The position numbers and the translations under genes were made by a program. From positions 1-29,632 of IMG/VR virus record IMGVR_UViG_3300030329_000259: a stretch of 29,632 nt of DNA. The stretch is one strand, 5' to 3'. How positions within the stretch are numbered: the stretch's first letter is position 1; each line of letters opens with the position of its first letter. Positions 1,998 to 19,591 of this stretch are shown one piece after another. This DNA comes from a virus. Under the pieces are notes generated by a model. It was not told the DNA's origin and ran no database searches. It was given only the letters and a program-made list of their open reading frames with translations.

Positions 1998-2027
1998 TAT
2001 ATAATAGAAAAACGTCTTTTTTATTTG
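1998..2027 (-). promoter_or_regulatory. Putative phage late promoter, copy 5
   Basis: On the minus strand CAAATAAA (2027-2020) is followed by 11 bases and TCTATTATATA (2008-1998), with the ATG of the next gene three bases further on. The same arrangement occurs at four other places. This copy lies just after the terminator at 2041-2062, the best evidence that it restarts transcription. If TATTATA acts as a -10 box, the mRNA would be nearly leaderless. Confidence 0.6.
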
Positions 2028-2040
2028 GCTTTAAAAGAAA

Positions 2041-2062
2041 AAGGTGGACATAAGCCCACCTT
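2041..2062 (-). terminator. Intrinsic terminator after the tail-tube gene
   Basis: Read on the minus strand, AAGGTGG, an 8-base loop and CCACCTT form a perfect 7-bp stem, followed by a short T-rich tail (TTTTTCTTTT counting stem bases). It lies 35 bases after the stop of the tail-tube gene and just before the promoter-like element at 1998-2027. It probably ends the capsid/tail-tube transcript. Confidence 0.8.
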
Positions 2063-2096
2063 AATCAAGAAATATATGAAAACTACTAATTAAAGT

Positions 2097-2663
2097 CTAC
2101 GAAGATACTACACCACCTAATGTAAATCCACCATTATCAAATGGGTTTGTAGTATAATCAGGCACAAATTGGAAAGGCTGTTGCTCTAACCCATCAAAAG
2201 TTAAAGTGTAACCATTTCTATCACCAAATGCTGCTCCACTATCCATAGTTCCTGCATTTAATTCCATTCCATTAACACTACCAAGACATACTATAACATC
2301 GTGTCCTGTAGCAGTTACTGTTTGATTTAATTGTGCAAATATAATTACTTTTGTTGCTCCTAGTAATTTTATCTGATTTTGGTCTTCTTTTGTTAATCTA
2401 TTTAATATAATATTTACTGTTGGAGTATAAAATATCGTTCCATTTTCTCTTGAGCCTGTAATAGTATCAGTAAGACTTGCAACACCTAAAGGCATTGTAT
2501 ATCTATAAAGACTATTAGCACCCATTTCTAAATCAGTAATTTCACCATTCGCTGTTGGTATTGAAGTTACTTGGTCATAAACTGCGAAATAAATAAATTT
2601 TATTCCACCTGATATTCTATTACAATCAAGTCCTCTACCTTTTGTTAATGCTGTACACGCCAT
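2097..2663 (-). CDS. Putative major tail tube protein
   Basis: A 188-residue protein whose pattern fits tail-tube proteins of Bacteroidota siphoviruses. It opens with CNRISGGIKFIYFAVYD, has SLYRYTMPLG and GTIFYTPTVNIILNRL in the centre, then NGMELNAGTMDSGAAFGDRNGYTLTFDGLEQQPFQFV, where the GDRNGYTLTF-GxE-FxFV end is characteristic. The tube polymer surrounds the tape measure and carries DNA into the cell. The gene follows the major capsid gene across a 62-base gap holding a stem-loop, and a terminator follows it, as suits a highly expressed product. Assignment is from remembered family patterns. Confidence 0.7.
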   Translation of the reverse strand: MACTALTKGRGLDCNRISGGIKFIYFAVYDQVTSIPTANGEITDLEMGANSLYRYTMPLGVASLTDTITGSRENGTIFYTPTVNIILNRLTKEDQNQIKLLGATKVIIFAQLNQTVTATGHDVIVCLGSVNGMELNAGTMDSGAAFGDRNGYTLTFDGLEQQPFQFVPDYTTNPFDNGGFTLGGVVSS

Positions 2664-2686
2664 TGTTATAAGTTTTAAAGGTTAAA

Positions 2687-2714
2687 GGAGCAGAGGTTTT
2701 TACACCCCTGCTTC
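2687..2714 (-). terminator. Stem-loop between capsid and tail-tube genes
   Basis: On the minus strand AGCAGGGG, an 8-base loop and CCTCTGCT pair over 8 bp including one G-U, with two further pairs beyond one mismatch. The following bases (CCTTTAACC) are not a T run, so this may be a partial terminator, an mRNA-stabilising 3' end for the capsid message, or an attenuator rather than a full terminator. Confidence 0.5.
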
Positions 2715-2725
2715 TTGTATTAATT

Positions 2726-3643
2726 TTATGATTGTCTTACAATATCTGCTCCTACTCCTGTTTGAACACCCATAGAGTATTTTGCAACCACTCTAATGTT
2801 ATCAGACCCGTCTAAGTTAGCCATATCAAGTAAAGCAATACGTGTCGTATCTGAAAGTAAATCAGTCCCCGCAAACATATTACTTCTTTGTGCTGCTACT
2901 AATTGATTGTCAACCATACCTGGACAAACTGCAATCTTGTATCCTTCAAATACAGGCTCATAGTCACCATTCATATTGTAAGCATTAACATATCCTAATG
3001 TAGATACTGCTGATACATAGAAAGCGTAAGTCTTAGGATTCATATAAATATGTAAGTCTTCCTTTCTTAATATTGCTGAAACATTAGCAGCCATATCTGC
3101 TGTTAAAGTTTGTAAGTTTGCTATAATGTTTGCTGCTGTATAAGCACCTGATGCAGATGATTGTATAACTGTTGCATCAACACCTGGTAATAAGTAACCT
3201 GTTGCAGTTCCTAAGAATCCTGCGAACTCACCATTGTTAGCCGCTACACCTGACCATATTGAATCTTCAGCAGCATCTGCTATGATTTCACCCATATAAG
3301 ATATTACATAGTCATCAAATGATGGTGGTGGTGGAGCACCTGCTCCTGCTCTCATTTGTAATGCTTCCCACGAACTAAGCAGCGTAGTCTTGCACAAATC
3401 CAAATTAATTTGTAGATTTTTTGGTTCGAGAACTTTTTCCGTTAATGCAAGTGTTCCATTGTCAGTAAAGTCACACGTAGCATCTCTCACTACTGAACTC
3501 CCCGCCATCCGCTGGATATTGCTTTTATATTTGATATTTTCTATCAAAGTTAGATAGTCTAAACTTCTTGTTTCTTTTAGTGCCGCCGAAATATAAAACC
3601 CCGCCGCCTTACCACTAAAATTGCTTGTTACTGTAAACGCCAT
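2726..3643 (-). CDS. Major capsid protein (HK97-fold type)
   Basis: A 305-residue protein of the size expected for a Bacteroidota-phage major capsid protein. Visible parts are an N-terminal arm, a long-helix region around FDDYVISYMGEIIADAAEDSIW, and the late segments IYMNPKTYAFYV, YEPVFEGYKIAVCPGM and NMFAGTDLL, followed by a closing run of beta strands (IRVVAKYSMGVQ). It forms the icosahedral shell. The scaffold and XkdF-like protease genes lie directly before it in transcription order, which supports the call. The first 60 or so codons hold GC-rich runs (such as GGCGGCGGGG) unusual for this AT-rich genome. Confidence 0.8.
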   Translation of the reverse strand: MAFTVTSNFSGKAAGFYISAALKETRSLDYLTLIENIKYKSNIQRMAGSSVVRDATCDFTDNGTLALTEKVLEPKNLQINLDLCKTTLLSSWEALQMRAGAGAPPPPSFDDYVISYMGEIIADAAEDSIWSGVAANNGEFAGFLGTATGYLLPGVDATVIQSSASGAYTAANIIANLQTLTADMAANVSAILRKEDLHIYMNPKTYAFYVSAVSTLGYVNAYNMNGDYEPVFEGYKIAVCPGMVDNQLVAAQRSNMFAGTDLLSDTTRIALLDMANLDGSDNIRVVAKYSMGVQTGVGADIVRQS

Positions 3644-3666
3644 TTTTTTATTGTTTTAGTTATTAA

Positions 3667-4392
3667 TTATTTGTTTAAATTGTATAAAAATCTTTCTTGT
3701 CTAGTAAGTTTCTTGTATTCTTTTGTAGATAAAGGTTTTCTTTCTACACTAAACTTATTAGTATTTATTGGTGATTCAGCAGGTGTTTCTGCTAATTCAG
3801 TTTTTAATTTTTCATTTTCTGCTTTAATTGCTTCTACTTCTTCAGTTGTAAATTCAACTACTTCAGTTTTTTTAATAGACTTAGGTTTGTCAGACACTTC
3901 TTCAGATGTTTCTTCAGATGTTTCTTCAGACATTTCTTCAACATCATCATCACCACCTACTTTATCTCTTTTAAGGTCTGCTACTGCATCTTCTAAATTC
4001 TTGATGCGTTTTTCCATACCTTCCCAATCATAAACTGCTGCTTCTTCATCATAATCATCTTTGTCATCTTCTTCTGCTAATTCTTCTTTAACTTCTTCAG
4101 TTGACATTTCTTCTTCAGTAACTTCTTCTTCAGTTTCTGATTCTATAACTTCTCCAACAATCCCTTCTTCTTCTACCCTGAAACTTACACCTGTATCAGT
4201 TTTGTATGTTCCAATAGGCAGTAAAATCGTAGTTCCATCTTCAGTTAATACTGAAATGTCTACGCCTGCTTCTAATTCTTCCGCAGTTGATACAAATATT
4301 GTACCATCTTCGGATTTTGCCTGCCAGCCTAGTTTAACTTCTTCTTCTTTGTTAAGTCCTAGTGCTACTAATATTTGCTTTTTTAAATCCAT
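3667..4392 (-). CDS. Putative scaffolding protein
   Basis: A 241-residue very acidic protein. The N-terminal part (about 1-80) contains DGTTILLPIGTYKTDTGVSF, a compact beta segment. The middle (about 83-175) is dominated by Glu, Asp, Ser and Thr repeats (EEVTEEE, EETSEETSEE) with a helical WEGMEKRIKNLEDAVADLKRD. A coiled coil near 185-200 and a basic tail (KEYKKLTRQERFLYNLNK) follow. Such acidic coiled-coil proteins between the head protease and the capsid gene are usually internal scaffolds removed on maturation, and the basic tail would suit capsid binding. Role inferred from composition and position. Confidence 0.65.
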   Translation of the reverse strand: MDLKKQILVALGLNKEEEVKLGWQAKSEDGTIFVSTAEELEAGVDISVLTEDGTTILLPIGTYKTDTGVSFRVEEEGIVGEVIESETEEEVTEEEMSTEEVKEELAEEDDKDDYDEEAAVYDWEGMEKRIKNLEDAVADLKRDKVGGDDDVEEMSEETSEETSEEVSDKPKSIKKTEVVEFTTEEVEAIKAENEKLKTELAETPAESPINTNKFSVERKPLSTKEYKKLTRQERFLYNLNK

Positions 4393-4413
4393 AGTAATTT
4401 ATTTAAGTTGTGT

Positions 4414-4443
4414 TATATAATAGAATGTTTTATTTTTTATTTG
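4414..4443 (-). promoter_or_regulatory. Putative phage late promoter, copy 4
   Basis: CAAATAAA (4443-4436), 11 bases, then TCTATTATATA (4424-4414) on the minus strand. Here the ATG of the scaffold gene is 21 bases further downstream, unlike the 2-3 bases at the other four copies, so the element is not merely a ribosome-binding spacer. The upstream box overlaps the last codons of the protease gene. Confidence 0.55.
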
Positions 4444-5047
4444 ATTTTTGACTTTCTCTTATTATTTCATTAAGTGCTGATAATATCTCTAAGTCAGTTG
4501 GTTTCTTTTCTTGCATTTGCTCGAACTTATTTGTGAAATATCCTTCAATAGACAACCCTTTCAATTCTCCTTCCTTAATCTTGTTCCATAAGTCGTCATT
4601 GTCTATTCTCATTTTTACAAACCAAGTACCATTAGGTAAATCAAAACCATACATCTTTGACTTATCCATATCACCCTCTTTAATCCAACTTTCTACTGTT
4701 AGAACTCCTGACACTCTGTCTTGGTGTTGGTAAGTCGCTTTATGATGGTTATTGTGTTTTAAATAAAGTTCACTGGCCTTTCTTACTGTTTCAGGACTAA
4801 AATATACATAATAGTCTGAGTCAGTATTAGGGTCATATCTAAATATTTGTTTGTTAGGTATTAAAGCAGGAGAAACTAACATACGCTTTTCTTCATCTAC
4901 TTTAGCAAATGTTAAATTGTTCTTTTCTTTACCAAAAAATACAAAGTCTTGCTCTATTGCAGGGGCAGTTACTAGACTTATAGCGTCTATTGCTAATTCT
5001 TGGTTATCGTCTTCTATTACAAGTTCTATAATCTTAGTTTCTTTCAT
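4430..5047 (-). CDS. XkdF-like prohead protease
   Basis: A 205-residue protein when started at ATG 5047, preferred because it follows the previous stop as TAA-T-ATG, a junction used repeatedly here; an in-frame ATG at 5086 would add 13 residues overlapping the gene before. It has the features of the XkdF-like putative serine protease family: LVSPALIPNKQIFR, YYVYFSPETVRKAS, a His/Asn-rich NNHHKATYQHQDRV, VESWIKEGD, GTWFVKMRI and a final KIKEGELKGLSIEGYF. It likely cleaves scaffold and capsid proteins during head maturation, matching its place just before both genes. Catalytic residues were not fixed. Confidence 0.75.
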   Translation of the reverse strand: MKETKIIELVIEDDNQELAIDAISLVTAPAIEQDFVFFGKEKNNLTFAKVDEEKRMLVSPALIPNKQIFRYDPNTDSDYYVYFSPETVRKASELYLKHNNHHKATYQHQDRVSGVLTVESWIKEGDMDKSKMYGFDLPNGTWFVKMRIDNDDLWNKIKEGELKGLSIEGYFTNKFEQMQEKKPTDLEILSALNEIIRESQKSNKK

Positions 5048-5048
5048 A

Positions 5049-5534
5049 TTAAAAAGTATATCTTTTACTATATGTAAAATAATCATCTACGTTTTTTTCG
5101 GCTTCAGCAAGACTAGGAACATCACTACTTTTTAATCCTAGAGATTTTAAGGCTTTTGTAACATCTTCTTGCAATCCTCTTAATTTAGGAAATATTTTAC
5201 TAGCATTTGCGCCTAAATCTCTTAATTGGTCATCTAAATTTTCCCATTTTTTTCCTATTTTTTCTATTTTAGTCAAAATAGTTTTCATTTGTTTATTAAA
5301 TTTTATTAAATCATCTACATCTCCTAATTCTATTCTTTCAATTTTACTTAAATTAAATTCTTTTAACTCTTTTTCGTATTCTTCATAGGTTTTATTACCT
5401 AATGGTGTTGGTATTTGTTTCATTTTACTATATTTTTTAGGATTTGCTTTTTCACATTCGTCTTTAGTGGCGTATTTACACTCTCCTGTGTTACCCCACT
5501 TGTATTTATCGTCTTTACATTTTTTACACGGCAT
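5049..5534 (-). CDS. Cys-containing coiled-coil protein of unknown function
   Basis: A 161-residue protein starting with CKKCKDDKYKWGNTGECKY and DECEKANP, a four-Cys N-terminal segment that could hold zinc. The rest is Lys/Glu/Leu-rich helix (about 50-145) with coiled-coil character. It starts two bases after a TCTATTATATA element, so it opens a transcript, and ends one base before the protease start. Sitting between the tape measure and the head protease, it may be a virion or assembly protein. I recall similar N-termini in other Bacteroidota phage proteins but cannot name the family. Confidence 0.6.
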   Translation of the reverse strand: MPCKKCKDDKYKWGNTGECKYATKDECEKANPKKYSKMKQIPTPLGNKTYEEYEKELKEFNLSKIERIELGDVDDLIKFNKQMKTILTKIEKIGKKWENLDDQLRDLGANASKIFPKLRGLQEDVTKALKSLGLKSSDVPSLAEAEKNVDDYFTYSKRYTF

Positions 5535-5536
5535 AT

Positions 5537-5566
5537 TATATAATAGATTTATTAGTTATTTATTTG
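5537..5566 (-). promoter_or_regulatory. Putative phage late promoter, copy 3
   Basis: CAAATAAA (5566-5559), 11 bases and TCTATTATATA (5547-5537) on the minus strand, then two bases and ATG at 5534. It lies wholly in the 35-base gap after the tape-measure stop. Confidence 0.6.
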
Positions 5567-5569
5567 ATT

Positions 5570-6982
5570 TTATATTGTTGCTCTACGTCTTATGTTTGCT
5601 AATTGGTTTTGACTGTTAGTCATTTCATCAGTTACTACAAAGGCTTTTAAAGGCTCAGGCTGTTGACCACCACCTAAAGTAAATGCTCCTCCTAACATTT
5701 GTGGAGCAGGAGTTTCAGGACTTGCTGCTGGTACACCACCACCTCCACCACTACCTACATCTACAGCCATTATCTTTTTTACATTTGCTAAACCTGATAC
5801 AATTATTGCTGCTGCTTGTAACATAGCCAAAGGAGTACCTTTACCTGCTGCTAATGCTCCATTTGCTGCTGCATAAGTGTCTATAATAGCCTGTGCTACT
5901 GCTAAGGCTTTATTTTCTCCTGCTAATTCACTTAAAGACCCTGCTAGACTACTATAGGCTTCTAACTGTGCATTAACATTATCTAAGGCTACTTGTTTTT
6001 GTTCTTTTTGTAGTGATATGTTATTTACAAGTTGCTCAGATTGAAAACCTGTTATTTGTGCTTGTACTGCTTTCTTTTCATTTAAGGCTTCTTCTAATGC
6101 AATCTGATTTTCTAAACTATTGTTTTTTTCTACATCTAATCTTGCTGCTTCTATTTGTATATCTACAAGTTTCAACATTTCTTCTTCTTGCTCTTTTAAG
6201 ACTTCACCTAATTTATTATTTGCTGCAATTCTTTCTTCAAAAGTCTTACTTTCATCATCTCTTACTTGTCTTAGTTTTTCTGCTTGTCTATCATATTCTT
6301 CAATTAATCCCTGTACTTGTACTCTTGCTAAATCTGATTCTTTTCTTAATTCTACTGTTGCTGTTGCTGCATCAGTAGTATTTTTAACATAGTCTTTTAT
6401 CTTATCTGATGCAGTTGATATTGTGTTAGTAATTTTATCAACACTACCATCTACTCCTGTAAGCACATCAATACTTTCTTTACCTGCTTCTTTTACACTT
6501 TCCATAGCCCCCTTAAAATCACCTGTAAATAGTTTTTGTAAAGCATTACCTAAATGACCAAAAGTATCTAATAGACTATTAAACCTTTCTACTAAATTGT
6601 CTTTAATTGCATTACCAAAATCTATTATACTTTGTTTTGGGTTTTCAAATATATCTTTAAAAAAACCTGTAACAGTTTCAATATTATCTTCTAAGAATTT
6701 AAAAAAGTCATTAAATGCTATACTAAGACTTTCCATAGCAATATTAAATGTATCTAAGACTCTTTGGTTTTTACTAAATACTTCCATAAGTTTAGCAATT
6801 AAACCAACTACTAAACCAATACCTGCTGCTTTAAGTGCAGTACCTATACCTTTTATAGCCTTACCCATACCTTTAAATCCACCTGATGCTTCTTTAGTTG
6901 ACTTATCTAGATTATCTACTTCTTTAGTAACATCACCTACGTTAGATGTAATTTCTGCTTCTATTATTGTTTTATTCGCCAT
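5570..6982 (-). CDS. Tail tape measure protein
   Basis: A 470-residue protein with typical tape-measure build: a helical N-terminus (VTKEVDNLDKSTKEASGGFKGM), Gly/Ala-rich hydrophobic stretches near residues 40-70 (GKAIKGIGTALKAAGIGLVV), a long charged coiled-coil region around 200-345, and a second Ala/Gly-rich hydrophobic part near 355-405 before a Gly/Pro tail. It sets tail length and acts in DNA delivery. By the usual 1.5 angstrom per residue rule the tail would be about 70 nm, short for a siphovirus. Unusually, it is transcribed after the tail-tip genes rather than before them. Confidence 0.8.
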   Translation of the reverse strand: MANKTIIEAEITSNVGDVTKEVDNLDKSTKEASGGFKGMGKAIKGIGTALKAAGIGLVVGLIAKLMEVFSKNQRVLDTFNIAMESLSIAFNDFFKFLEDNIETVTGFFKDIFENPKQSIIDFGNAIKDNLVERFNSLLDTFGHLGNALQKLFTGDFKGAMESVKEAGKESIDVLTGVDGSVDKITNTISTASDKIKDYVKNTTDAATATVELRKESDLARVQVQGLIEEYDRQAEKLRQVRDDESKTFEERIAANNKLGEVLKEQEEEMLKLVDIQIEAARLDVEKNNSLENQIALEEALNEKKAVQAQITGFQSEQLVNNISLQKEQKQVALDNVNAQLEAYSSLAGSLSELAGENKALAVAQAIIDTYAAANGALAAGKGTPLAMLQAAAIIVSGLANVKKIMAVDVGSGGGGGVPAASPETPAPQMLGGAFTLGGGQQPEPLKAFVVTDEMTNSQNQLANIRRRATI

Positions 6983-6985
6983 AAT

Positions 6986-7210
6986 CTATTTTTTTATAAA
7001 TTCTAATATTGTATTTATTTTCTCTTTTAATTCTGCTATTTGTACTTTTAAATCTGACATTGCTTTAGCATTATCCTCGTGCCTTTTACCAAATTCTTTT
7101 TTAACCTCATATAAACTAAACACCATAAACTTATATATGGTATAAACAGCCCCTATTAGCAATACTAATGGTAAACCATAACCCTCTATTAATTGTAATA
7201 TTTCTTCCAT
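6986..7210 (-). CDS. Small membrane protein with coiled coil (holin-like candidate)
   Basis: A 74-residue protein with one N-terminal membrane segment (about 12-32, LPLVLLIGAVYTIYKFMVF) followed by a charged helix (VKKEFGKRHEDNAKAMSDL, then LKVQIAELKEKINTILEFIKK). This resembles the BhlA/XhlA-like small phage membrane proteins found near lysis or tail genes. It shares a TAATG junction with the fibre gene before it and lies 3 bases before the tape measure. It could be a holin, a membrane anchor used in DNA entry, or something else; the endolysin is far away in the genome. Confidence 0.6.
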   Translation of the reverse strand: MEEILQLIEGYGLPLVLLIGAVYTIYKFMVFSLYEVKKEFGKRHEDNAKAMSDLKVQIAELKEKINTILEFIKK

Positions 7211-8034
7211 TATACTATTATTTCATAAAGATTTAACGTAGCACTCCAACTTATATCCATATTCGCTGCTCCTGTTACTGACAAGTGCATATCATTTGTA
7301 GAATCAAAAAATAAAGCAGTTGTCCAACCTGTTACTGTTCCAAAACTTCCTAATGTTGCTACACTTTCGTTTGATACTTTTAGATATACTATTCCTGTTG
7401 CTCTTAAAAATATTCTATCATTAGGATTACCACCTGCTGTACCACCTGTTCTTACTCCTAATACATTTGCTTCAAAGCCCTGAAAAGAACTTGTAGAACT
7501 TCTTGCTATAATTGTATCAGAACTACTGTTATTGACTTTTAAATTAGTTTGTGTAGCGTTTGTAGTCGTTCCTGATAGACTTACTACTGAACTTTGACCA
7601 TAACCCTTACCAACACCATTAAAAGCCCCACCACCAATTACTACTTCTCCATCTCTTTGTGCTATACCATAGTTGCCTAATACTGTTGCATTGTTTACGC
7701 CATTTGATACTTCATTGTTGTCACCTATTAGTATATTGTTTCTAGATATTCCTTTTACTATATTATTTTCACCCATAATAATAGTATTAGTTGTACCTGT
7801 TTCTGCTGTATTGTTTTTACCTTTTATAAAATTATCTACATTATCTGCACTTGTAATTATAGAGTTATTTAACCTAAAAGCAGTACAAGAACGAGAATCA
7901 GAATTGTATGTGTACCCATACGCTTCACATTGTACTTGATTAGGTATAATATCATTTGTACCATCAGTAAAAATAACTTCACCCTGTCTAGTTGTTTGCT
8001 TTGGTTTTACGCTAAATCCTTTTTTAAATTCCAT
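7210..8034 (-). CDS. Tail fibre-like protein with YadA-head-like repeats
   Basis: A 274-residue protein. Residues about 55-135 carry Asn/Gly/Ile-rich repeats (NNSIITSADN, NNTAETGTTNTIIMGENN, ISRNNILIGDNN, GVNNATVLGN) resembling the left-handed beta-roll of trimeric adhesin heads. A Ser/Thr-rich stretch and a beta-rich end (about 205-274) follow. The N-terminal piece contains a Cys pair (VQCEAYGYTY, SRSCTAF). Such trimers commonly form phage fibres touching the host. TAATG junctions on both sides place it in the tail operon directly after the large tail-tip protein. Confidence 0.65.
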   Translation of the reverse strand: MEFKKGFSVKPKQTTRQGEVIFTDGTNDIIPNQVQCEAYGYTYNSDSRSCTAFRLNNSIITSADNVDNFIKGKNNTAETGTTNTIIMGENNIVKGISRNNILIGDNNEVSNGVNNATVLGNYGIAQRDGEVVIGGGAFNGVGKGYGQSSVVSLSGTTTNATQTNLKVNNSSSDTIIARSSTSSFQGFEANVLGVRTGGTAGGNPNDRIFLRATGIVYLKVSNESVATLGSFGTVTGWTTALFFDSTNDMHLSVTGAANMDISWSATLNLYEIIV

Positions 8035-10787: not shown

Positions 10788-12199
10788 TATATTGCTTGTG
10801 TTCTTAGTGTTTTAGTTTTTTCTACTTCAAAAGTATATTGTATTAATTTATCATTTGCAATAGTTTTTCTTGTATAACTTGATGTTGTAAGTCTTACAGG
10901 TGTTACAAATTGATTTAATGCAAATCCTGTTTCGTCATTTAATCCTGATTGTCCTTTTAAAATATATACTTCAGGACTATTTATTAATTCCTCTAACCAT
11001 ATAGACTCTGACTCAGTAATATAGTCAGTATTCATACTTATTCTTTCAGTAGAATTTACTCTGAATGTTTTTTTACCACCTTTAAAAGAATCTATCCTAT
11101 ATTTACTTTCATTCCAAGTACCCTCTAACTGATTATATGTAGTACCCTGTGTAGTTATACTTTTAGTAGACTTTTTAGTAAAGGTGTAATAATCCCACAC
11201 ACCATATTGATTTAACCAACATAATCTTACACTTTCATAACCTTTTAAGTCAGGACAGTTTACCTTTATAGTATAAGATGACGCTATTTGTGTAGGCGCA
11301 CTAGTAAAAACTTGTATACCTATTTCACCCCCCTGTATAGTACCTGCTGTCACTAACGCTTTAAAAGCAGCACTCCAATTTCTTAGATTACCTGGAAAAC
11401 AACCAAAGTACAATACATTCATACCTATATAAGCATTAAAAACATCATAAGCCCCATTTGCTGTAGTTCTATCTATTTGGTCAGTACCTATTGTAACCCC
11501 TGCACTATTCTTATAGGTTAAAGTAATATAAGATATATCACTTAATTGGTCATTAAACGCTTTTGGAGTAAACATAGCAACAGTACCATAATCTTCTACA
11601 TTAGCATATTGTATAGTAGGAGCATTACTTAAAAATTTATCTTTACTGTTTGTTAATAAAAAATCATCACTCATATCAAATCCAAAATTAGCCCCTGATA
11701 CATCTAATATGTCTGCATAAGTCAAATAACCATTAAATATTTGAAACAAATTACTATTTACTGCTTCTACCTGTACCAACTCATTAGTAGTTGTATCAAA
11801 GTATTCAGTTTTAAATTGTATCACTAAATATCTCATTAGATTTACATTACCTGAAAACTTGTCTATTAAGTGTAATGGGTGTCTTTTATCATCAGTAGTA
11901 GTTTCATCTTTATATGTACTATTTATTCTAGCCATATTATCAGCACTTACATAATTCTCTATTACTGAACGTAAGTTAAATATACCTACTCCTGCATTGT
12001 TAGGTGTAGTCTTAAATTTACCTACAACATCATCTGCTACTGCTGTGTTAGGAGCAAAGGTATTACTAATATGTACTTCTGCTTGAAACTTTACCCTAGT
12101 TTTTGTTGATACTATATTGCTGTTTGAAACCACAAATATAACATCTTGTCCTACAGGTGTTTGTGTATATAGTGGTTTTTGTTCTATTATTGTCGCCAT
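10787..12199 (-). CDS. Putative tail-tip structural protein
   Basis: A 470-residue beta-rich protein. Recognisable segments are the N-terminal VGQDVIFVVSN, AGVGIFNLRSVIENYV, then RYLVIQFKTEYFD, the central GYESVRLCWLNQYGVWDYYTF, and the C-terminal ESIWLEELINSPEVYI and LIQYTFEVEKTKTLRTQ. This pattern recurs in Bacteroidota-phage tail modules next to the large tail-tip protein, and it may play the distal-tail (Dit) role. It is TAATG-coupled to the completion protein before it and to the 917-residue gene after it. Exact position in the tail is inferred. Confidence 0.65.
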   Translation of the reverse strand: MATIIEQKPLYTQTPVGQDVIFVVSNSNIVSTKTRVKFQAEVHISNTFAPNTAVADDVVGKFKTTPNNAGVGIFNLRSVIENYVSADNMARINSTYKDETTTDDKRHPLHLIDKFSGNVNLMRYLVIQFKTEYFDTTTNELVQVEAVNSNLFQIFNGYLTYADILDVSGANFGFDMSDDFLLTNSKDKFLSNAPTIQYANVEDYGTVAMFTPKAFNDQLSDISYITLTYKNSAGVTIGTDQIDRTTANGAYDVFNAYIGMNVLYFGCFPGNLRNWSAAFKALVTAGTIQGGEIGIQVFTSAPTQIASSYTIKVNCPDLKGYESVRLCWLNQYGVWDYYTFTKKSTKSITTQGTTYNQLEGTWNESKYRIDSFKGGKKTFRVNSTERISMNTDYITESESIWLEELINSPEVYILKGQSGLNDETGFALNQFVTPVRLTTSSYTRKTIANDKLIQYTFEVEKTKTLRTQAI

Positions 12200-12786
12200 T
12201 AGCCTACTGTTATTTTATATGTTTTTAAACTGTCTAATATATCTTCTTTTAATTCTTTAGCCATATCTTGCCCAAAGTCTTGCATTCCTAACATTAAAGA
12301 TTTTTGAAAGAAACTAATTCCGTGTATTCCTTTAATCCATAATACTCTCATTATTGCAGTTCTTAATCCTGCTGTAGTCATAAATTGCCCACCTTCACTT
12401 CTTGGCTGTAAACCTTTTTTTCTAATAAAAGACCCTATACCTTTTCTCATTCCACCTTTTTTACCTGTACCTGTACCAAACTTATAAGGACTATCTTTTC
12501 TTTTTCCTTCCCAAGTTATATACCATCTACGACCACCCCAAGTTCCTTTATGGTCACCTGACTTAATAGTACCTCCCGCTCCTTTTACTCCCTTATCTAC
12601 ATACGTTCCATAATCTACCATAGAAAATTCTACACTAAACCCACTTTCATTTTTAACTACATTAAACTTTATAGATTGTTCTAATTTACCACCTCCTTTA
12701 CCTGCTACTTGTAAATTTCTTTTTGCATTAGCAACTATTTCTGCTCCAAAAGAGTTTAAGTATCTTTCTATATTGTCGGTATTCAT
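12199..12786 (-). CDS. Putative tail completion / neck protein (HK97 gp10-like)
   Basis: A 195-residue basic protein. The segment VEFSMVDYGTYVDKGVKGAGG matches the hallmark of HK97 gp10-type connector proteins, where a strand leads into YGxYVDxGxxG. A Gly/Lys-rich middle with several Trp (TWGGRRWYITWEGKRK) and a C-terminal amphipathic helix (DMAKELKEDILDSLKTY) follow. Such proteins finish the tail or join it to the head. It lies between the 149-residue structural gene and the large tail-tip genes, with TAATG junctions on both sides. Confidence 0.65.
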   Translation of the reverse strand: MNTDNIERYLNSFGAEIVANAKRNLQVAGKGGGKLEQSIKFNVVKNESGFSVEFSMVDYGTYVDKGVKGAGGTIKSGDHKGTWGGRRWYITWEGKRKDSPYKFGTGTGKKGGMRKGIGSFIRKKGLQPRSEGGQFMTTAGLRTAIMRVLWIKGIHGISFFQKSLMLGMQDFGQDMAKELKEDILDSLKTYKITVG

Positions 12787-13235
12787 TATACAAGACCTGC
12801 AAATATTTCTACTTGTACATCAGTTGTTGCTGATGGTCTAACTTGTACTGTTACTAAGTCTTCTAATGTAGGGAAAGCAGGTGTTGTGTCTTCTTCTGCT
12901 ATTGCTACATTTTCTGCTTGAAATAATACGTGTGAGCCACCTGCTCTTACAGTTACCTGATAGTTAGTGTTAGTAGTTACAAATGCTACTATAACATCTT
13001 GGTCAGTACTAAGATTGCTAATACGAAAGTATTTACAATTTTCTACATCTAATGCTCCTGCTGCTCCATGTGGTGTAGAATTAAATACTGCTACTGTTGT
13101 AGTGTTTGAATGCGCACAAGTTAATATACGTTCAAATACATCTACTACTCCTGTAGTTGTTAATGTGTTTGATGAACCTCTAACTGCTCCATTTAAAGTT
13201 ACTGTTTCGGTTATTGTTGTTACTAAATCCGCCAT
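12786..13235 (-). CDS. Putative virion structural protein
   Basis: A 149-residue Thr/Val-rich beta protein: ITETVTLNGAVRGSSNTL, a central FERILTCAHSNTTTVAVF, YFRISNLSTDQDVIVAFV, then VRAGGSHVLFQAENVAIAEE and a closing VQVRPSATTDVQVEIF. Phages carry similar small beta-sandwich structural proteins, but I cannot name the family firmly. It is in the tail gene string and shares TAATG with the completion protein. It could be a minor tail or decoration protein; the tail-tube role is better filled by the gene at 2097-2663. Confidence 0.6.
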   Translation of the reverse strand: MADLVTTITETVTLNGAVRGSSNTLTTTGVVDVFERILTCAHSNTTTVAVFNSTPHGAAGALDVENCKYFRISNLSTDQDVIVAFVTTNTNYQVTVRAGGSHVLFQAENVAIAEEDTTPAFPTLEDLVTVQVRPSATTDVQVEIFAGLV

Positions 13236-13237
13236 AA

Positions 13238-13303
13238 TTATAATTTTATTGTTATTTTAAAAAATCCTATTTCTATTCTATATTTGCCTATCTTAAATTT
13301 CAT
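13238..13303 (-). CDS. Tiny TAATG-coupled ORF (21 residues)
   Basis: ATG at 13303 overlaps the TAA of the tail-terminator-like gene (TAATG, the standard junction here), and the stop at 13238 is two bases before the next ATG. The ORF thus fills the gap exactly. The peptide begins MKFKIGKYRIEIGFF and alternates basic and hydrophobic residues. It may be a real micropeptide or only a translational bridge keeping ribosomes on the mRNA. Confidence 0.35.
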   Translation of the reverse strand: MKFKIGKYRIEIGFFKITIKL

Positions 13304-13830
13304 TACTCACCTGCTCCTCCACTTGATGCAGGTATTATACAAGCATCAAAGTCATTTTGCACTAATATTCCTAAACTAAAAACCCAACCTGTTAATTCAT
13401 TATCAAATCTTTCAGTAAATGGTTCTAGTGTTTGTTGTCCTTGTAAAAAGTATAAAGGGTTATTTACATCACCATCAGTTGATTGATATAAACTATGTCT
13501 AAGCATTGATATTATATCTACTGATATTTGTAAACAATCACTTAACACTTGTTGTTCACTACTTAGTCTTTCTGCTGATTGATAATTTTCAGTTGTCCAA
13601 TCTTTCTTTTCAGTTACTAAGTCACATATAAATATTTGAAAATTATATATTAGACCACTATCTTGTGTTGTTACATTAACAGGATTTATGTGCATAAGAG
13701 CAAACTTTTCCATCTTTTCGAGATTGATGTCGAATATGTCACCTGTTGTAACTGTTGCTATTTGATGATGTTTGTCACCTATATTCTTTAAAGTGTTTAT
13801 TACGTTATTATACGTTTTATTTGCTATCAT
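13303..13830 (-). CDS. Putative tail terminator / minor tail protein
   Basis: A 175-residue protein. It starts with helical MIANKTYNNVINTLKNIGDKH, then a beta/helix core (FALMHINPVNVTTQ, YNFQIFICDLVTEKKDW, LSDCLQISVDIISMLRHSL), and ends with the beta hairpin FDNELTGWVFSLGILVQNDFDACIIP. This helix-sheet-helix layout and size fit tail-terminator proteins, and related proteins sit near the assembly chaperone in Bacteroidota phages. It overlaps the end of the frameshift ORF by 14 bases. The assignment rests on remembered pattern and position. Confidence 0.6.
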   Translation of the reverse strand: MIANKTYNNVINTLKNIGDKHHQIATVTTGDIFDINLEKMEKFALMHINPVNVTTQDSGLIYNFQIFICDLVTEKKDWTTENYQSAERLSSEQQVLSDCLQISVDIISMLRHSLYQSTDGDVNNPLYFLQGQQTLEPFTERFDNELTGWVFSLGILVQNDFDACIIPASSGGAGE

Positions 13831-14074
13831 TTAATTTTACTTTATTTTGTGAATCTAAGTCTGTTTCATAACTTAACCAAGTTAAGCATTCTAACAAACT
13901 TAAATTTGTTATCCTTTCTAAGTTTACTATCTCACCATTTGTCAACCTATACATCACACCGAACCAACCCCACTTTTCTGCGAATGATTGTGTGGTAATA
14001 GTGTCTTCATTTCCTTCAGCATTTCTATCGAAGACAATTGAATACTCTTGTACAATTCGTTGCCTAAACTCCAA
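13817..14074 (-). CDS. Tail assembly chaperone, -1 frame extension (T-like part)
   Basis: An 85-codon reading frame overlapping the end of the 213-residue chaperone gene by 121 bases in the -1 frame. It has no ATG ahead of its conserved part FAEKWGWFGVMYRLTNG, EIVNLERITNLSLLECLTWLSYE, and its only upstream start is a TTG inside the T run. That strongly suggests translation as an extension by -1 frameshifting at 14074-14080, like gpGT of lambda, giving a fusion of about 259 residues (174 + 85). The extended chaperone would bind tape measure and tube subunits during tail assembly. Confidence 0.75.
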   Translation of the reverse strand: MEFRQRIVQEYSIVFDRNAEGNEDTITTQSFAEKWGWFGVMYRLTNGEIVNLERITNLSLLECLTWLSYETDLDSQNKVKLNDSK

Positions 14075-14595
14075 AAAAAAACCAATGCACTTTGCACTTG
14101 CTCTGCTGACATCTTTTTAAATTCTTCTGCTCTCATTCTTATATTACCATCATAGGCTTCAATAGTATATAGATTGTTTTTCTTTTCTACTATTGGTCTA
14201 AACAGTACAGCCATTATCTCAGGCATATTTTGCTCTATACCATTTTTAATAAATGTTTCTATATCTGCATATTCACCTAAAGTAATAGAGTCTAAGTCAG
14301 GGTGAAAACCATACTCCTTACCTTCCAATTCAACTATCTTATTTAAAGAACTACTTTGTTTATCTTGTAAGTCACCTAATCTATCCATAATAACAGCCAC
14401 ATCTCTTATTGATAATTCCTTTATTAACTTCTTAGGAATATTAGACAATGCTGCTATTGTTTCTTCTGCTTCCTTTGTCTTACTGCCTTTTTGTAAATCT
14501 ACGAGTTTAATCCACTTTTCTAAAGTGACGTCTGCCCATTTACTTATTAATTTGTAGTTTTTAGTCTTACCTTCTTTCTTGATTTTGACTTTCAT
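13954..14595 (-). CDS. Tail assembly chaperone, zero-frame form (G-like)
   Basis: A 213-residue, mainly helical protein: KISKWADV-type opening (ISKWADVTLEKWIKLVDLQ), LIKELSIRDVAVIMDRLGDL, LDSITLGEYADIETFIKNG and MPEIMAVLFRP. These follow tail-assembly chaperones of other siphoviruses, where LGEYxDxE and MxAVLxRP recur. Codons 172-175 (Val-Phe-Phe-Trp) are encoded by a run of nine T, where ribosomes can slip into the -1 frame. It is the first gene after terminase and starts two bases after a TCTATTATATA element, so it opens the tail transcript. Confidence 0.75.
   Translation of the reverse strand: MKVKIKKEGKTKNYKLISKWADVTLEKWIKLVDLQKGSKTKEAEETIAALSNIPKKLIKELSIRDVAVIMDRLGDLQDKQSSSLNKIVELEGKEYGFHPDLDSITLGEYADIETFIKNGIEQNMPEIMAVLFRPIVEKKNNLYTIEAYDGNIRMRAEEFKKMSAEQVQSALVFFWSLGNELYKSIQLSSIEMLKEMKTLLPHNHSQKSGVGSV
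14074..14080 (-). promoter_or_regulatory. Programmed -1 frameshift heptamer T TTT TTT
   Basis: In the zero frame the message reads GTT TTT TTT TGG over residues 172-175 of the chaperone, with a run of nine T at 14081-14073. T-TTT-TTT is a canonical X-XXY-YYZ slippery site that allows perfect re-pairing, and a -1 step leads straight into the frame of 13817-14074. Confidence 0.7.
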
Positions 14596-14597
14596 AA

Positions 14598-14627
14598 TAT
14601 ATAATAGAAAAAGTTGATATTTAGTTT
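14598..14627 (-). promoter_or_regulatory. Putative phage late promoter, copy 2
   Basis: TCTATTATATA (14608-14598) on the minus strand, two bases before ATG 14595. The upstream box at the same 11-base distance is degenerate (AAACTAAA, 6 of 8 against CAAATAAA). It lies in the 30-base gap between the terminase and the tail chaperone. Confidence 0.55.
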
Positions 14628-15966
14628 ATTGTACATAATACTTACCAAAGTTGCTGTCTATTTCATAAAACATTCTCATTGCTAATGCATCAGAATAATC
14701 AGGAGAACGTCCTAAAATTGCTTTTACTGTGTCTTTTGGTAATATTTGTAATTTATTATCTTTATCTGCATCTTTAGTTCTTACTTGCTCTAGTTCTTCT
14801 ATAATATGTTGCTTAACATTTACATCAGAACAACTTATGCCTAATTGACCTTTGTTGATTAAGTCTGCAAGTTTATAGTAACATTGTGTTTTTAAGTTTT
14901 GATAATTCTCATTTTTTAAAGCCTTAGAATTATTTACAAATCCTTTACAACGTAAATAGTCTTTTACACCACCACCTACTCCATCTTCATCAACAATTAT
15001 ATTTCTTAAATTAACTTGATTTTCTTGTTGTAATTTCTTAATCTCGTCTACAACGTCATTTACAGCCGATTTAAGCAACGTTCTCACATAAGTAATGTGT
15101 AACCCTTTCCAAAGCATTATAACTGTTCTATCGCTTCCAAAACGTGCTACATCACAAGTTATGTATTTTTCACCATCAACACCTTTTTGACTAAAAAGAC
15201 TTACTATTGAATTATAATCTATTAAATTATCATCATTTACATCATATTCCCAATTACCAAATAATAACCTTTGCTTACTTAATTCATCTAATTCAGATAA
15301 TTGCTTCTCATAATGCTTAGATATATAAGTATTATCTCCTACTAATGATTGAATAAATTTTCTATATGGTTTTAATGTTCCATCTTTAGCAGGTTTATAA
15401 TAAGATGTATATACCCAATTTTTTGCAGGATTACAAGTCATTAACATAGATGGTTTTAAATTGTTCTCATCTAATTTATATCTTAGTCTTGATGCTACTA
15501 TATTTTTTGCTTTTTCAGTTATTTGGTTTGCTTCATCTATAAATGCTGCTGTAATTTCTAATGAACCCAAATTATCAAAGTTAGGGTCTGATGGATATAA
15601 GAATAAGTCTTTTAATATTATTTCTGAACCATTATAAAATGTAATAATATTAGAATGTCCATTAAATGTATAATCTCTCCCTGATTCTAATTTCCAATAT
15701 GCACAAACTTCAAAGAAAGTATTTAATGTTGTCTTTTTAAGTGAATCTAATTTACTTCTACCCATCAAATATCTTGTTTTAGGATAATCTAAACACATTA
15801 TAATTAAATAACTTACTCCTATCCAAGACTTACCACCTCCTGCTGCTCCCCCAAATAATACTTCTTTTGTATCATTATCGAATAAATACTTTAAACATTG
15901 TTTCTGAGTCTGAGTAAATTCAGGTTTAATCTCCAAGATTGATGTTAATTTTGATTCTTTGTTCAT
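14626..15966 (-). CDS. terL: Terminase large subunit
   Basis: A 446-residue DNA-packaging motor. ATPase domain: Walker A GGAAGGGKS at 39-47, Walker B ITAAFIDEA at 138-146 with D144/E145, and coupling motif MTCNP at 176-180. Nuclease domain, RNase H-like: CDVARFGSDR with D272, IIVDEDGVGGG near 324-333, and SPDYSDAL with D426. It pumps DNA into the prohead and cuts concatemers. It overlaps the small-subunit gene by 41 bases, and the tail module follows. Size and all motifs fit an intact, functional terminase. Confidence 0.95.
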   Translation of the reverse strand: MNKESKLTSILEIKPEFTQTQKQCLKYLFDNDTKEVLFGGAAGGGKSWIGVSYLIIMCLDYPKTRYLMGRSKLDSLKKTTLNTFFEVCAYWKLESGRDYTFNGHSNIITFYNGSEIILKDLFLYPSDPNFDNLGSLEITAAFIDEANQITEKAKNIVASRLRYKLDENNLKPSMLMTCNPAKNWVYTSYYKPAKDGTLKPYRKFIQSLVGDNTYISKHYEKQLSELDELSKQRLLFGNWEYDVNDDNLIDYNSIVSLFSQKGVDGEKYITCDVARFGSDRTVIMLWKGLHITYVRTLLKSAVNDVVDEIKKLQQENQVNLRNIIVDEDGVGGGVKDYLRCKGFVNNSKALKNENYQNLKTQCYYKLADLINKGQLGISCSDVNVKQHIIEELEQVRTKDADKDNKLQILPKDTVKAILGRSPDYSDALAMRMFYEIDSNFGKYYVQ

Positions 15967-16264
15967 CTGATGTTATGTCTAATTTATTAGTTTCATTCCA
16001 ACCTAACTGTGTTTTTGCTGCGTGTAAAACCACTGATGGTACTTTGTCTTTTACACATTCATAATATTTAGACTTGATAAAATCATTTGCTATATTTTGT
16101 ATATCGGCTACATCTTTAGCAAATTGTTCGTCTTCTTTTAACCATTTATAATAATTCGTTCTAGAAAGTTCCGTTGTCTTTAATGCAGTTGTAACTACTC
16201 CTAGTGATTTCTCTAATGCTTGTAGCATTCTTTTTTTGTTGATTTGTGTTCTATTTTGTTCCAT
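15926..16264 (-). CDS. terS: Terminase small subunit
   Basis: A 112-residue protein with an N-terminal helix-turn-helix (about 9-45: KKRMLQALEKSLGVVTTALK, then SRTNYYKWLKED) and a helical oligomerisation part ending KVPSVVLHAAKTQLGW. The pattern of a transposase-like HTH plus HAAKxxLGWxE is common in phage small terminases. It recognises packaging DNA and loads the large subunit. It overlaps the genes on both sides (14 and 41 bases), implying coupled translation. Confidence 0.8.
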   Translation of the reverse strand: MEQNRTQINKKRMLQALEKSLGVVTTALKTTELSRTNYYKWLKEDEQFAKDVADIQNIANDFIKSKYYECVKDKVPSVVLHAAKTQLGWNETNKLDITSDEQRIKININLGD

Positions 16265-17330
16265 TTTGTATATATCTAAATGCTGCTGTTATTCTATTTT
16301 TTGTACTTGTTTTATTAAATCCTACCATTTTTTGCTTGCCTGTATTCCTTCCAAAAAAGTAACATTTCCAATTTTTATGTCTTTTTAATGAGAAAATTAA
16401 ACTTGGAGCAGATGTAGTTATTCCCATTATATATTTTTCGGTAGTATATTTCTTTGCTATAAAATCTAATAATCTTCCTCCTATTCCAATTCCCTGATAA
16501 TCAGGTAGTATTACTAATCTATGTACTTTTTTTAAATTAGGTACTTTATTAGGTAAATGTAATATACTTATAAATCCTGCTATTTGTTCATTAACGTATG
16601 CTACATAAGTATGTGCTGCATTGTTATGACTATGGCTCAAATAGTGGTGTTTAGCAAATATTCTCCATATTGACTTATCTCCTGTTTTGAATATTTCAAA
16701 TTTAACTTTTGGTCTATTTTTTTTTTGCCCTTCAAGTATTTGAAAGGTCATACTATCAGTATTAAATACCCAATCAGGTAATAGCCAATCTTGTACATCG
16801 TGATGACAAGTAACTGCTATAAATTGTTTGTTTGATTTCCTTATTGCTTTTTGCATAGCATAAGAACCTATTTTTGCTACATTTCTATCTACAACTGATG
16901 TAAATTCGTCAAATACTATTAATTTATCTTCTTTTAATAGTGCATTTGCTAAATCTACTCTCATTTTTTGACCATTGGACAAAACTGAATAAGGCTTTAA
17001 CCAACTTGGTGGTGAACTGAAGCCTACACTATTAAATATTTTTGTAATATCATCTACTGATGCTGTTTCAGGCATATCATCTAATATAGTTTCTGCTTTA
17101 TAATCAAAATTAGTAACATAAGCATCTTTGAATAATTCTTTTGCTATTGTTGTTTTTCCTGTACCACTATTACCAACTATTAATCCTATTTTCCAATTTT
17201 CAGGCATATCTATACTACCTTTAAAATGTTCTTTTATATGTTCAGTTTGTAAGTCAAACTTACCCATTACTGAAGAAACTCTAAAAGTCTTTTTAGGTTT
17301 GCTTTGTCTTAGAATGTCAAAATTCGGCAT
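16251..17330 (-). CDS. ABC-type ATPase fused to GNAT acetyltransferase (COG2401-like)
   Basis: A 359-residue two-domain protein. Residues about 20-200 are an ABC ATPase: Walker A GNSGTGKTT (53-61), signature LSNGQ (117-121), Walker B LIVFDE (137-142) and H-loop CHHD (175-178). Residues about 210-350 are a GNAT fold with acetyl-CoA motif RLVILPDYQGIGIGGRLL (271-288). No membrane segments, so not a transporter. This architecture is that of COG2401, 'ABC-type ATPase fused to a predicted acetyltransferase'. It overlaps the ParB-like gene by 22 bases and the small terminase by 14. A role in DNA modification or packaging control is inference; the substrate is unknown. Confidence 0.85.
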   Translation of the reverse strand: MPNFDILRQSKPKKTFRVSSVMGKFDLQTEHIKEHFKGSIDMPENWKIGLIVGNSGTGKTTIAKELFKDAYVTNFDYKAETILDDMPETASVDDITKIFNSVGFSSPPSWLKPYSVLSNGQKMRVDLANALLKEDKLIVFDEFTSVVDRNVAKIGSYAMQKAIRKSNKQFIAVTCHHDVQDWLLPDWVFNTDSMTFQILEGQKKNRPKVKFEIFKTGDKSIWRIFAKHHYLSHSHNNAAHTYVAYVNEQIAGFISILHLPNKVPNLKKVHRLVILPDYQGIGIGGRLLDFIAKKYTTEKYIMGITTSAPSLIFSLKRHKNWKCYFFGRNTGKQKMVGFNKTSTKNRITAAFRYIQNGTK

Positions 17331-17827
17331 TTATATCCTTTTTTAATTAATTCATTATATACTTGTTCTTGTTCTCTTTCTGATGTTAATTCTATTTCAA
17401 CTCTATATTCTTCAGAAATATTATCTGATATATCATTTACATCACTATTATATTCGTCATCTTTATTTTCCCAAACATCTAACCCCCATTCAGCAAGTTG
17501 TACACTATCCCACTCATTAGCCAACATATCCCATTCCCACTCACCAAAGTTTACATTGTCTTTTACTATAAATTCATCTTTTTGCTCTGATGTTAAACCT
17601 TCTGCTACATCTATCCATACTTCTTTAAGTCCTGCATCTTTACTTGCTTTTAATCTCATATTACCACCTAATACCATCATATTTTCATCTACTATTATTG
17701 GTCTTAACTTTAACATTTCAGGAAATTCCTTAATAGACTTTACTAATTTTTTAAATTTATCATTCTTAATTATTCTAGGATTATTAGGATTTCCTTTTAT
17801 TTTGTATAACTTAACTTGTTGTTTCAT
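17309..17827 (-). CDS. ParB-like nuclease-domain protein
   Basis: A 172-residue protein with a ParB/Srx-type domain at about 5-115: IKGNPNNPRIIKNDKFKKLV, LRPIIVDENMMVLGGNMRLK, KEVWIDVAEGLT and the following DEFIVKDNVNFGEWEWDML. In many phages this domain is fused to an adenine methylase, but here the chain ends after AEWGLDVWENKDDE with a short tail (YRVEIELTSEREQEQVYNEL), so no methylase is present. Its partner by overlap is the ABC-GNAT gene, suggesting joint work on DNA. It starts two bases after a TCTATTATATA element. Nuclease or CTPase activity is not proven. Confidence 0.8.
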   Translation of the reverse strand: MKQQVKLYKIKGNPNNPRIIKNDKFKKLVKSIKEFPEMLKLRPIIVDENMMVLGGNMRLKASKDAGLKEVWIDVAEGLTSEQKDEFIVKDNVNFGEWEWDMLANEWDSVQLAEWGLDVWENKDDEYNSDVNDISDNISEEYRVEIELTSEREQEQVYNELIKKGYKCRILTF

Positions 17828-17829
17828 AA

Positions 17830-17859
17830 TATATAATAGATTTTATCTTTATTTATTTA
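17830..17859 (-). promoter_or_regulatory. Putative phage late promoter, copy 1
   Basis: TAAATAAA (17859-17852), 11 bases and TCTATTATATA (17840-17830) on the minus strand, then two bases and ATG 17827. The upstream box overlaps the end of the preceding early gene. This copy separates the early block from the ParB/terminase block. Confidence 0.55.
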
Positions 17860-18055
17860 GCATTCTTCTTGTTATGCTGTTTTCTAATCTTCTTTCAAAT
17901 TCTGCACTAAGTATATCTCTTATTATCTTTTCGTTTGCTTTAAATTTTTGCTGCATATATTTAGAACTATTTGCGTGTGGATTGTTAAAGTAATATTCTA
18001 CTACTTCTTTACTTAGTTGCTTTAATTGTTTTGGTGTTCTTTTCTTTGCTCTCAT
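17849..18055 (-). CDS. Small basic protein, unknown function
   Basis: A 68-residue protein with the start at ATG 18055, chosen because it follows the preceding stop as TAA-T-ATG; an in-frame ATG at 18109 would add 18 residues overlapping the zinc protein by 53 bases. It is rich in Lys and Arg, begins MRAKKRTPKQLKQLSKEVVE and ends with EKIIRDILSAEFERRLENSI. The helices could form a helix-turn-helix, which would suit DNA binding, but no family is recognised. It is the last gene of the early block. Confidence 0.6.
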   Translation of the reverse strand: MRAKKRTPKQLKQLSKEVVEYYFNNPHANSSKYMQQKFKANEKIIRDILSAEFERRLENSITRRMLNK

Positions 18056-18637: not shown

Positions 18638-19038
18638 ATCTTACTGTATTTAATATATAGTTTTTTTATTGCATCATACGCTGTAGACAAACAAGAACCA
18701 CAACTTGTTCTAGGATTATAGTTAGATGCTGTTATAGTATTATATAATTCCATCATTCTTATTTTTGCATCTTGTCCTTCTGCTACTCCTGTTTTTAAAT
18801 ACTTCCAAATGTCTAGTATTTCATCTATTAATTCTTGTGGTAAGTCTTCAGGTATTTCTATTACTGTAGTCTTATTCCAATAAGTCTTAGGACAAGCCAT
18901 TGGTGCTATACGTGCTTTAATCTTCATAAAACACTTGCACACCTTACAACTACCTGTAGGTTTAAAATAATAATCACAAGCCTTACATATAGCAAGTCTA
19001 TCTTCATATACTTGTTGTGATGTAAAAAACTTATTCAT
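18634..19038 (-). CDS. Cys-rich zinc-binding protein, unknown function
   Basis: A 134-residue protein with a dense Cys cluster: C18, C21, C31, C34, C36 and C49 (RLAICKACDYY, GSCKVCKCFM, MACPKTYW), which looks like a zinc- or two-zinc-binding fold seen in various phage proteins. A second pair, C113 and C116 (SCGSC), lies near the end after a helical region. It overlaps the sigma-like gene by 8 bases, so the two are probably co-translated and might act together. No function can be named from sequence. Confidence 0.65.
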   Translation of the reverse strand: MNKFFTSQQVYEDRLAICKACDYYFKPTGSCKVCKCFMKIKARIAPMACPKTYWNKTTVIEIPEDLPQELIDEILDIWKYLKTGVAEGQDAKIRMMELYNTITASNYNPRTSCGSCLSTAYDAIKKLYIKYSKI

Positions 19039-19591
19039 CTAATTCTTCTTTTATTATTGTTCTTACTTTGTCTATTGTCGTAAATAAACTATTCCTGCTT
19101 ATCTTGGTCTTGGCTGCTAACGAATCAAGCGTATTACCTTCATAGTAATACAACTTGAATAATTCCCTATCATACCAACTATCTAAATTGTCTAATATTA
19201 CATCAATCTTTTCCAATTTGTCTTGTCTTTCCTTTTGTATATAATCTACTTCATTAGGCATATTATATATGCTTTTATGAAAGTTATTATGTGTTGTTGA
19301 TGTCTGATAATTAACACCTACAAGATTTGTATAATACTTTCTATATTTATAATAAAAAGGACTTCTTGTACTTGTTAAAGCCCTACGTAAAACTACTGCT
19401 CCATATCTTGTTATACCATCTATACCATCTGCATCATAAATCTTTTTAATTGTTTCAGGATTCATCTGCAAAAGGTATAGCATTAATTCTTGTACAGCAT
19501 CATCTACTTTTTCTTTGTCTTGTGTAATACCATAACACATTTCTCTAAACTTGTCACCTAATTTTGATATTTCTAAATATATCTTATTCAT
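19031..19591 (-). CDS. RNA polymerase sigma-factor-like protein
   Basis: A 186-residue protein with the plan of a small sigma-70-family factor. The N-terminal part (about 1-50) has GDKFREMCYGITQDKEKVDD and DAVQELMLYLLQMNP, a region-2-like helical element. The C-terminal part (about 135-186) is region-4-like: LYYYEGNTLDSLAAKTKISR and NSLFTTIDKVRTIIKEEL, a helix-turn-helix. It could direct host RNA polymerase to phage promoters, and the genome has a repeated promoter-like motif before the late blocks. It could instead be another HTH regulator. Overlaps both neighbours by 8 bases. Confidence 0.65.
   Translation of the reverse strand: MNKIYLEISKLGDKFREMCYGITQDKEKVDDAVQELMLYLLQMNPETIKKIYDADGIDGITRYGAVVLRRALTSTRSPFYYKYRKYYTNLVGVNYQTSTTHNNFHKSIYNMPNEVDYIQKERQDKLEKIDVILDNLDSWYDRELFKLYYYEGNTLDSLAAKTKISRNSLFTTIDKVRTIIKEELDE

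Follow-up and report, generated by a model that had tools for sequence, protein, structure and literature searches.

Five copies of a bipartite motif in the window studied here, i.e., the entire IMG/VR record IMGVR_UViG_3300030329_000259 of 29,632 nt, are very probably late promoters of the phage, at which transcription switches from the sigma factor of the host to a sigma factor of the phage that reads the bipartite sequence. Most likely, the reader of the motif is the phage's own ECF-like sigma factor. Promoter sequence, conservation and lineage specificity were computed, as were a predicted sigma fold and a linked change of sigma residue 76 and base 2 of the -10-like element. A broader proposition, which we consider probable but hold less firmly, is that the late regulon has been recoded repeatedly in nature: the residue at the C-terminal end of the sigma2 domain would set base 2 (Arg for C; Asn, His or Tyr for A), possibly the next residue would set base 3, most or all promoters would shift together, and the mRNAs would be largely leaderless.

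The phages concerned are marine, have genomes of ~29 kb and are presumed to infect Bacteroidota. The ends of the record (1-408 and about 29566-29632) share a stretch of a gene for a LamG-domain protein, with an offset. The split of this gene between the record ends suggests a circular or permuted genome, which the assembly probably closes imperfectly, since the repeated stretch is offset. The promoters and the genes behind them are located as follows.

17830..17840, minus strand: late promoter 1, -10-like element TCTATTATATA; ATG at 17827; kept before syntenic genes
17852..17860, minus strand: upstream (-35-like) box of promoter 1, CTAAATAAA
17309-17827, minus strand: ParB-like gene behind late promoter 1; terminase genes next
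14598..14608, minus strand: late promoter 2, TCTATTATATA; ATG at 14595
14620..14628, minus strand: upstream box of promoter 2, TAAACTAAA; includes the TerL stop codon
13954-14595, minus strand: first gene of the tail block, behind late promoter 2
5537..5547, minus strand: late promoter 3, TCTATTATATA; ATG at 5534
5559..5567, minus strand: upstream box of promoter 3, TCAAATAAA
5049-5534, minus strand: 161-aa protein with a weak scaffold match, behind promoter 3; XkdF-type head protease next
4414..4424, minus strand: late promoter 4, TCTATTATATA; leadered, ATG at 4392
4436..4444, minus strand: upstream box of promoter 4, TCAAATAAA; within the 3' end of the protease gene
3667-4392, minus strand: acidic scaffold-like protein, behind promoter 4; major capsid protein next
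1998..2008, minus strand: late promoter 5, TCTATTATATA; ATG at 1995
2020..2028, minus strand: upstream box of promoter 5, CCAAATAAA
1516-1995, minus strand: gene opening the head/fibre block, behind promoter 5; then LamG proteins and portal (across the record ends)

The window contains exactly five copies of the 11-mer TCTATTATATA; each is on the minus (coding) strand, and the plus strand has none. In 300 dinucleotide shuffles of the window, it was found 0.18 times on average, counting both strands, with a maximum of 2, and the bipartite form, consisting of the upstream box, 11 bases and TCTATTATATA, was found in none (0/300). The 8-mers located exactly 11 bases upstream of the 11-mer are CAAATAAA in three cases and TAAATAAA and AAACTAAA in one case each. 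An earlier note on this DNA had described the five exact copies and the upstream 8-mers with their three variants, and both descriptions proved accurate. It had also placed four copies close to an ATG; all four end 2 bases before it (17827, 14595, 5534 and 1995), and in the fifth a gap of 21 bases separates the motif end from the ATG (4392). The claim that the motif lies in non-coding DNA holds for the five 11-mers, which are all in gaps, but only partly for the upstream boxes, two of which (promoters 2 and 4) overlap coding DNA. As the note had stated, the copies precede genes that open late blocks, with the terminase, tail, protease, capsid and fibre/portal blocks seen downstream, and the motif differs from the host-type TAnnTTTG box: this -7 box of the Bacteroidota primary sigma factor is absent from the late sites of the window and from the distinct sites of the relatives.

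Between the ParB-like gene and the terminase genes, the window contains a gene for a fused ABC-type ATPase and GNAT acetyltransferase (16251-17330), which matches PHROG 11143 with an E-value of 4e-98. The fused gene is present in few relatives only; in many relatives, a late promoter lies directly 5' of the small terminase gene instead.

Relatives were collected as 80 loci by TerL homology. These loci contain 157 copies of TCTATTATATA on the coding strand vs. 5 on the opposite strand, and the logo of 50 distinct sites reads TNAA[AC]TAAA followed, at a fixed spacing, by TTTCTATTATATA. The exact motif was found in 26 of the 30 records that were searched whole, many of which have four or five copies. 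A pattern scan of IMG/VR yielded at least 112 new loci; among the matches listed, homologs of window proteins are encoded in 112 of 112 loci, and a reading frame that starts with ATG follows 118 of 118 sites. The motif is kept at syntenic late boundaries in relatives, on which the promoter reading of the earlier note depended. No host regulon was found in 84,980 bacterial and archaeal genomes, where the same pattern occurs only as scattered single copies, and a link of TCTATTATATA to a phage was not found in the literature searched. Judged by these searches, the motif is confined to this phage lineage. Flavobacterium phage 11b and Cellulophaga phage phi10:1, which are cultured relatives, have TerL in common (about 52%), but neither the motif nor a sigma homolog was detected in phage 11b or phi10:1 (35-kb stretch), and, therefore, they provide no direct experimental anchor.

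The putative reader of the motif is encoded in the early block, in an operon preceded by a promoter element of the host type.

19945..19952, minus strand: host-type Bacteroidota -7 box TATATTTG (TAnnTTTG), before the sigma operon
19584..19940, minus strand: gene for a 118-aa protein, first of the sigma operon; sigma gene next
19031..19591, minus strand: putative phage sigma factor, 186 aa, ECF-like (sigma2 + sigma4), in the early block; assigned by homology, predicted fold and the residue 76 linkage

A homolog of the sigma-like protein was found in 29 of 30 records searched, and a TAnnTTTG sequence lies about 360 nt upstream of the sigma gene in 180 of 239 records. Sequence profiles detect region 4 only, weakly, yet in most family members, and a weak match to PHROG 36 ('transcriptional regulator') covers residues 119-184. 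A sequence search of the PDB with the protein returned no significant match, and tblastn against a phage collection returned nothing up to an E-value of 1. The AlphaFold2 model of the full-length protein (pLDDT 72) has ECF sigma L as its best PDB match (E 5e-4); other sigma factors dominate the list, and one of the best VIA matches is sigma E (Z about 10). For residues 1-92 alone (pLDDT 87), the best VIA match is the sigma2 domain of sigma L (Z 8.3), and four more sigma chains rank next, above unrelated rows; Foldseek alone gave no significant match for this isolated domain. The predicted architecture consists of two domains, sigma2 and sigma4, in ~190 residues, with neither region 1.1 nor sigma3. 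The assignment of region 2 follows from the model, whilst region 4 is weakly indicated by the profiles. Thus, the sigma-like protein that the earlier note had seen in the early block appears sigma-like at the level of the predicted fold.

Residues 74-77 form, in the model, the turn behind the long helix with which the sigma2-like domain ends. In a profile alignment to E. coli RpoE and RpoD, only the helix-turn-helix (HTH) of region 4 was aligned; hence, residue 76 has no exact sigma70 number, and base 2 of the -10-like element is -12 or -13. In a phage ECF factor, the contact to the extended -10 element sits just C-terminal of sigma2 (PMC5333181), and -12, the upstream edge of the -10 element, is the only position of this element for which sigma suppressors have been reported (PMC2613000). 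In one of the homologs (L006:737-1240), about 18 residues are missing from the region 2.1-like part, through either a real deletion or an assembly artefact. A very distant homolog (L228 / L503; E about 1e-17) carries SKTSPFYKKYRKYY in the key region together with a single TGCATTATATA site, and may represent an outgroup. Directly downstream of the sigma gene, at 18634-19038, a small cysteine-rich protein with a DUF6171 domain (E 4.5e-8) is encoded; most relatives have it, and it is a possible transcription partner.

Relatives without the exact motif have TACATTATATA or TATATTATATA at syntenic sites, with the upstream box unchanged. The sites were called by anchoring on the upstream box whilst leaving bases 2-3 free. 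Where the sigma factor has Arg76 (Arg76-Ser77), 260 of 261 sites read TCT; with Asn76-Asn77, all sites read TAC (14/14), and with Asn, His or Tyr at position 76 followed by Ser77, all read TAT (38/38). For base 2, this amounts to C at 260 of 261 sites with Arg76 and A at 52 of 52 sites with Asn, His or Tyr76. An Arg favoring a C:G pair and an Asn favoring an A:T pair are chemically expected. In hand counts over whole records, among the rows listed, Arg76 genomes have 110 TCT and 4 TAT among 114 sites, and non-Arg76 genomes have no TCT, 19 TAT, 16 TAC and 1 TAA. Single TATATT sites in four Arg76 genomes (G008:11914, G018:15383, G022:28838 and G062:16037) are exceptions to the rule. The longer TACATT records contain 3-5 TACATT sites each, and where TCTATTATATA was looked for as well, at most one copy was present; the lone TCTATTATATA of one such record lies inside a reading frame and has no upstream box. 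Sequence comparison indicates that most or all sites of the TACATTATATA and TATATTATATA genomes changed together, and residue 76 with them.

The non-Arg sigma factors are found in three places on the sigma tree, each near related Arg sigma factors; the tree was built without columns 76 and 77, and some of the relevant branches are only moderately supported. Only a few recoding events are seen. In the sigma alignment, no column other than 76 separates the base-2 classes perfectly (101/101 Arg vs. 20/20 Asn, Tyr or His), and none of the neighboring proteins sampled from all three lineages has a perfectly separating column; the sigma column itself reaches only 0.98 in this control, since an Arg76 genome that has a TCT site and a TAT site was counted there as A-type. 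The link between residue 77 and base 3 (mostly T where residue 77 is Ser, C where it is Asn) is weaker than that between residue 76 and base 2, because one genome (G035; L230 / L501) with a Tyr76-Ser77 sigma factor has TATATT and TACATT sites mixed. This genome is possibly an intermediate between two promoter codes. Lineages with a Lys76 sigma factor (L521, L524, L536 and L184) have the looser late motifs TTCTATATATA, TCTATTTAATA and TCTATAATATA, and looser motifs are also found in some Arg76 genomes.

An alternative, which we regard as unlikely, is that the protein is a late activator of the RinA/ArpU sort with a sigma-region-4-like domain, which binds the upstream box and aids the host holoenzyme at a weak -10 element. 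In favor of this reading, phages commonly encode a late activator where an early operon ends, directly ahead of the terminase block; moreover, region 4 is the only one detected at the sequence level, and the PHROG match is annotated as a transcriptional regulator. However, the model of the full-length protein matches ECF sigma factors with two domains, the residue that tracks the -10-like bases is located at the end of the sigma2-like domain, outside the HTH, and the -10-like element does not resemble the TAnnTTTG box of the host. It is very unlikely that the motif is read by an alternative sigma factor of the host, or by its primary sigma factor together with another phage protein. Although flavobacteria have several ECF sigma factors (PMC9723704), the scan of bacterial genomes revealed isolated single copies and no regulon, and the genome-wide recoding of the sites tracks a residue of the phage protein. 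It is most improbable that the motif is no promoter but acts in translation, as a signal ahead of the start codon, or is bound by the ParB-like protein or the packaging machinery: it often abuts an ATG, the ParB-like gene has a copy in front of it, and in Bacteroidota the bases just 5' of the ATG affect translation, but the distance to the ATG ranges from 0 to >30 bases whilst the spacing of the two boxes stays fixed, the motif is not palindromic and is absent before the early genes of the window, and base 2 tracks the sigma factor, with no ParB column separating the classes as well. A phiKZ-style TATG promoter, used with a phage RNA polymerase, was also considered; upon inspection, no large polymerase subunit was apparent among the reading frames of the window.

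For the switch to a phage sigma factor, we infer the binding of this protein to RNA polymerase and promoter DNA, the early-to-late timing, the start sites and the host. Early in infection, host RNA polymerase with the primary sigma factor of Bacteroidota would read the TAnnTTTG promoter of the sigma operon. The ECF-like sigma factor (19031-19591) would then join the host core enzyme and read the bipartite promoter TNAA[AC]TAAA-N11-TCTATTATATA; sigma4 would recognize the upstream box, and the TC of the -10-like element would be read by the C-terminal end of sigma2 (~Arg76-Ser77). Thereby, the terminase, tail, head and fibre/portal blocks would be turned on. At most sites of the window, transcription would start at the ATG or 1-2 bases from it and produce leaderless or nearly leaderless mRNAs. 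The self-contained late-transcription switch suggested in the earlier note is supported by the lineage-private motif, the sigma-like fold and the changes in the motif that track one sigma residue; its timing and start sites would be as outlined here.

In F. johnsoniae promoters, the G of the TTTG box is at -5 (PMC6847099), and this geometry predicts a start for the sigma operon at the A of the ATG at 19940. At the late sites, the commonest arrangement, seen at 25 of 56 distinct sites, has the ATG beginning 13 bases downstream of the motif's first T, and transcription is expected to start at this distance; other sites would be leadered. The first open ATG is 23-45 bases after the motif start at about 20 of the 56 distinct sites, and leaderlessness is not universal. 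Accordingly, the near-leaderless layout proposed earlier agrees in its geometry with four of the five sites of the window and, among the distinct sites of the relatives, with about half. As leaderless mRNAs constitute only 5.5% in F. psychrophilum (PMC9723704), a phage with often leaderless mRNAs would be unusual.

The proposed system would be a complete and compact early-to-late switch for abundant, uncultured marine phages that presumably infect Bacteroidota, and its motif labels the late genes of these phages in metagenomes with no need for annotation. The natural pairs of sigma factor and promoter vary at one amino acid and one base and, thus, a genome-wide shift in the specificity of a sigma-promoter network can be tested with existing sequences. 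An orthogonal sigma/promoter pair would also be a useful tool in Bacteroidota.

The closest parallel is found in phages phiEco32 and 7-11, where a small phage-encoded sigma factor works with the host core RNA polymerase, as would be the case here, and where phage-specific promoters precede structural genes and host promoters serve the early genes (PMC4331800, PMC7881722, PMC5333181). Likewise, lineage-specific promoters are found here before structural gene blocks, and the sigma gene is located behind a host-type promoter. However, phage ECF promoters are described with an extended -10 element and no recognizable -35 element (PMC4331800, PMC7881722, PMC5333181), whereas this phage has a strong upstream box at a fixed spacing. 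Because this box is conserved, the system is classified as a variant that works like phiEco32 and not as a member of the phiEco32 family. The presumed Bacteroidota host and the genomes of about 29 kb are further differences, and the lineage is also set apart from the described phiEco32 type by the natural recoding of sigma factor and promoters and by the often near-leaderless layout.

In sigma70, the region 2.4 suppressors Q437H and T440I act on the -12 base pair (PMC2613000), which is comparable in that a single residue at the end of sigma2 shifts the base preference at the upstream edge of the -10 element, as residue 76 would do here. The suppressors, however, are mutations made in a primary sigma factor in the laboratory, whilst the change reported here is natural and extends over several sites per genome. 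The promoter of the Bacteroidota primary sigma factor, TTTG or TAnnTTTG (PMC6847099, PMC9723704), is present before the phage sigma operon. In contrast, TAnnTTTG is absent from the late promoter, whose upstream box is also different. The late promoter of phage T4, TATAAATA, has no upstream box and is read with gp55, which has no sigma4 domain. As in T4, a sigma-like protein of the phage would drive late genes from an A+T-rich -10-like element, but here the upstream box is conserved, a sigma4 domain is present and the sequence is not TATAAATA. Phage-encoded sigma factors with promoters of their own are already known from the phiEco32 type, and what appears new in this lineage is the upstream box, the often near-leaderless layout and the natural recoding.
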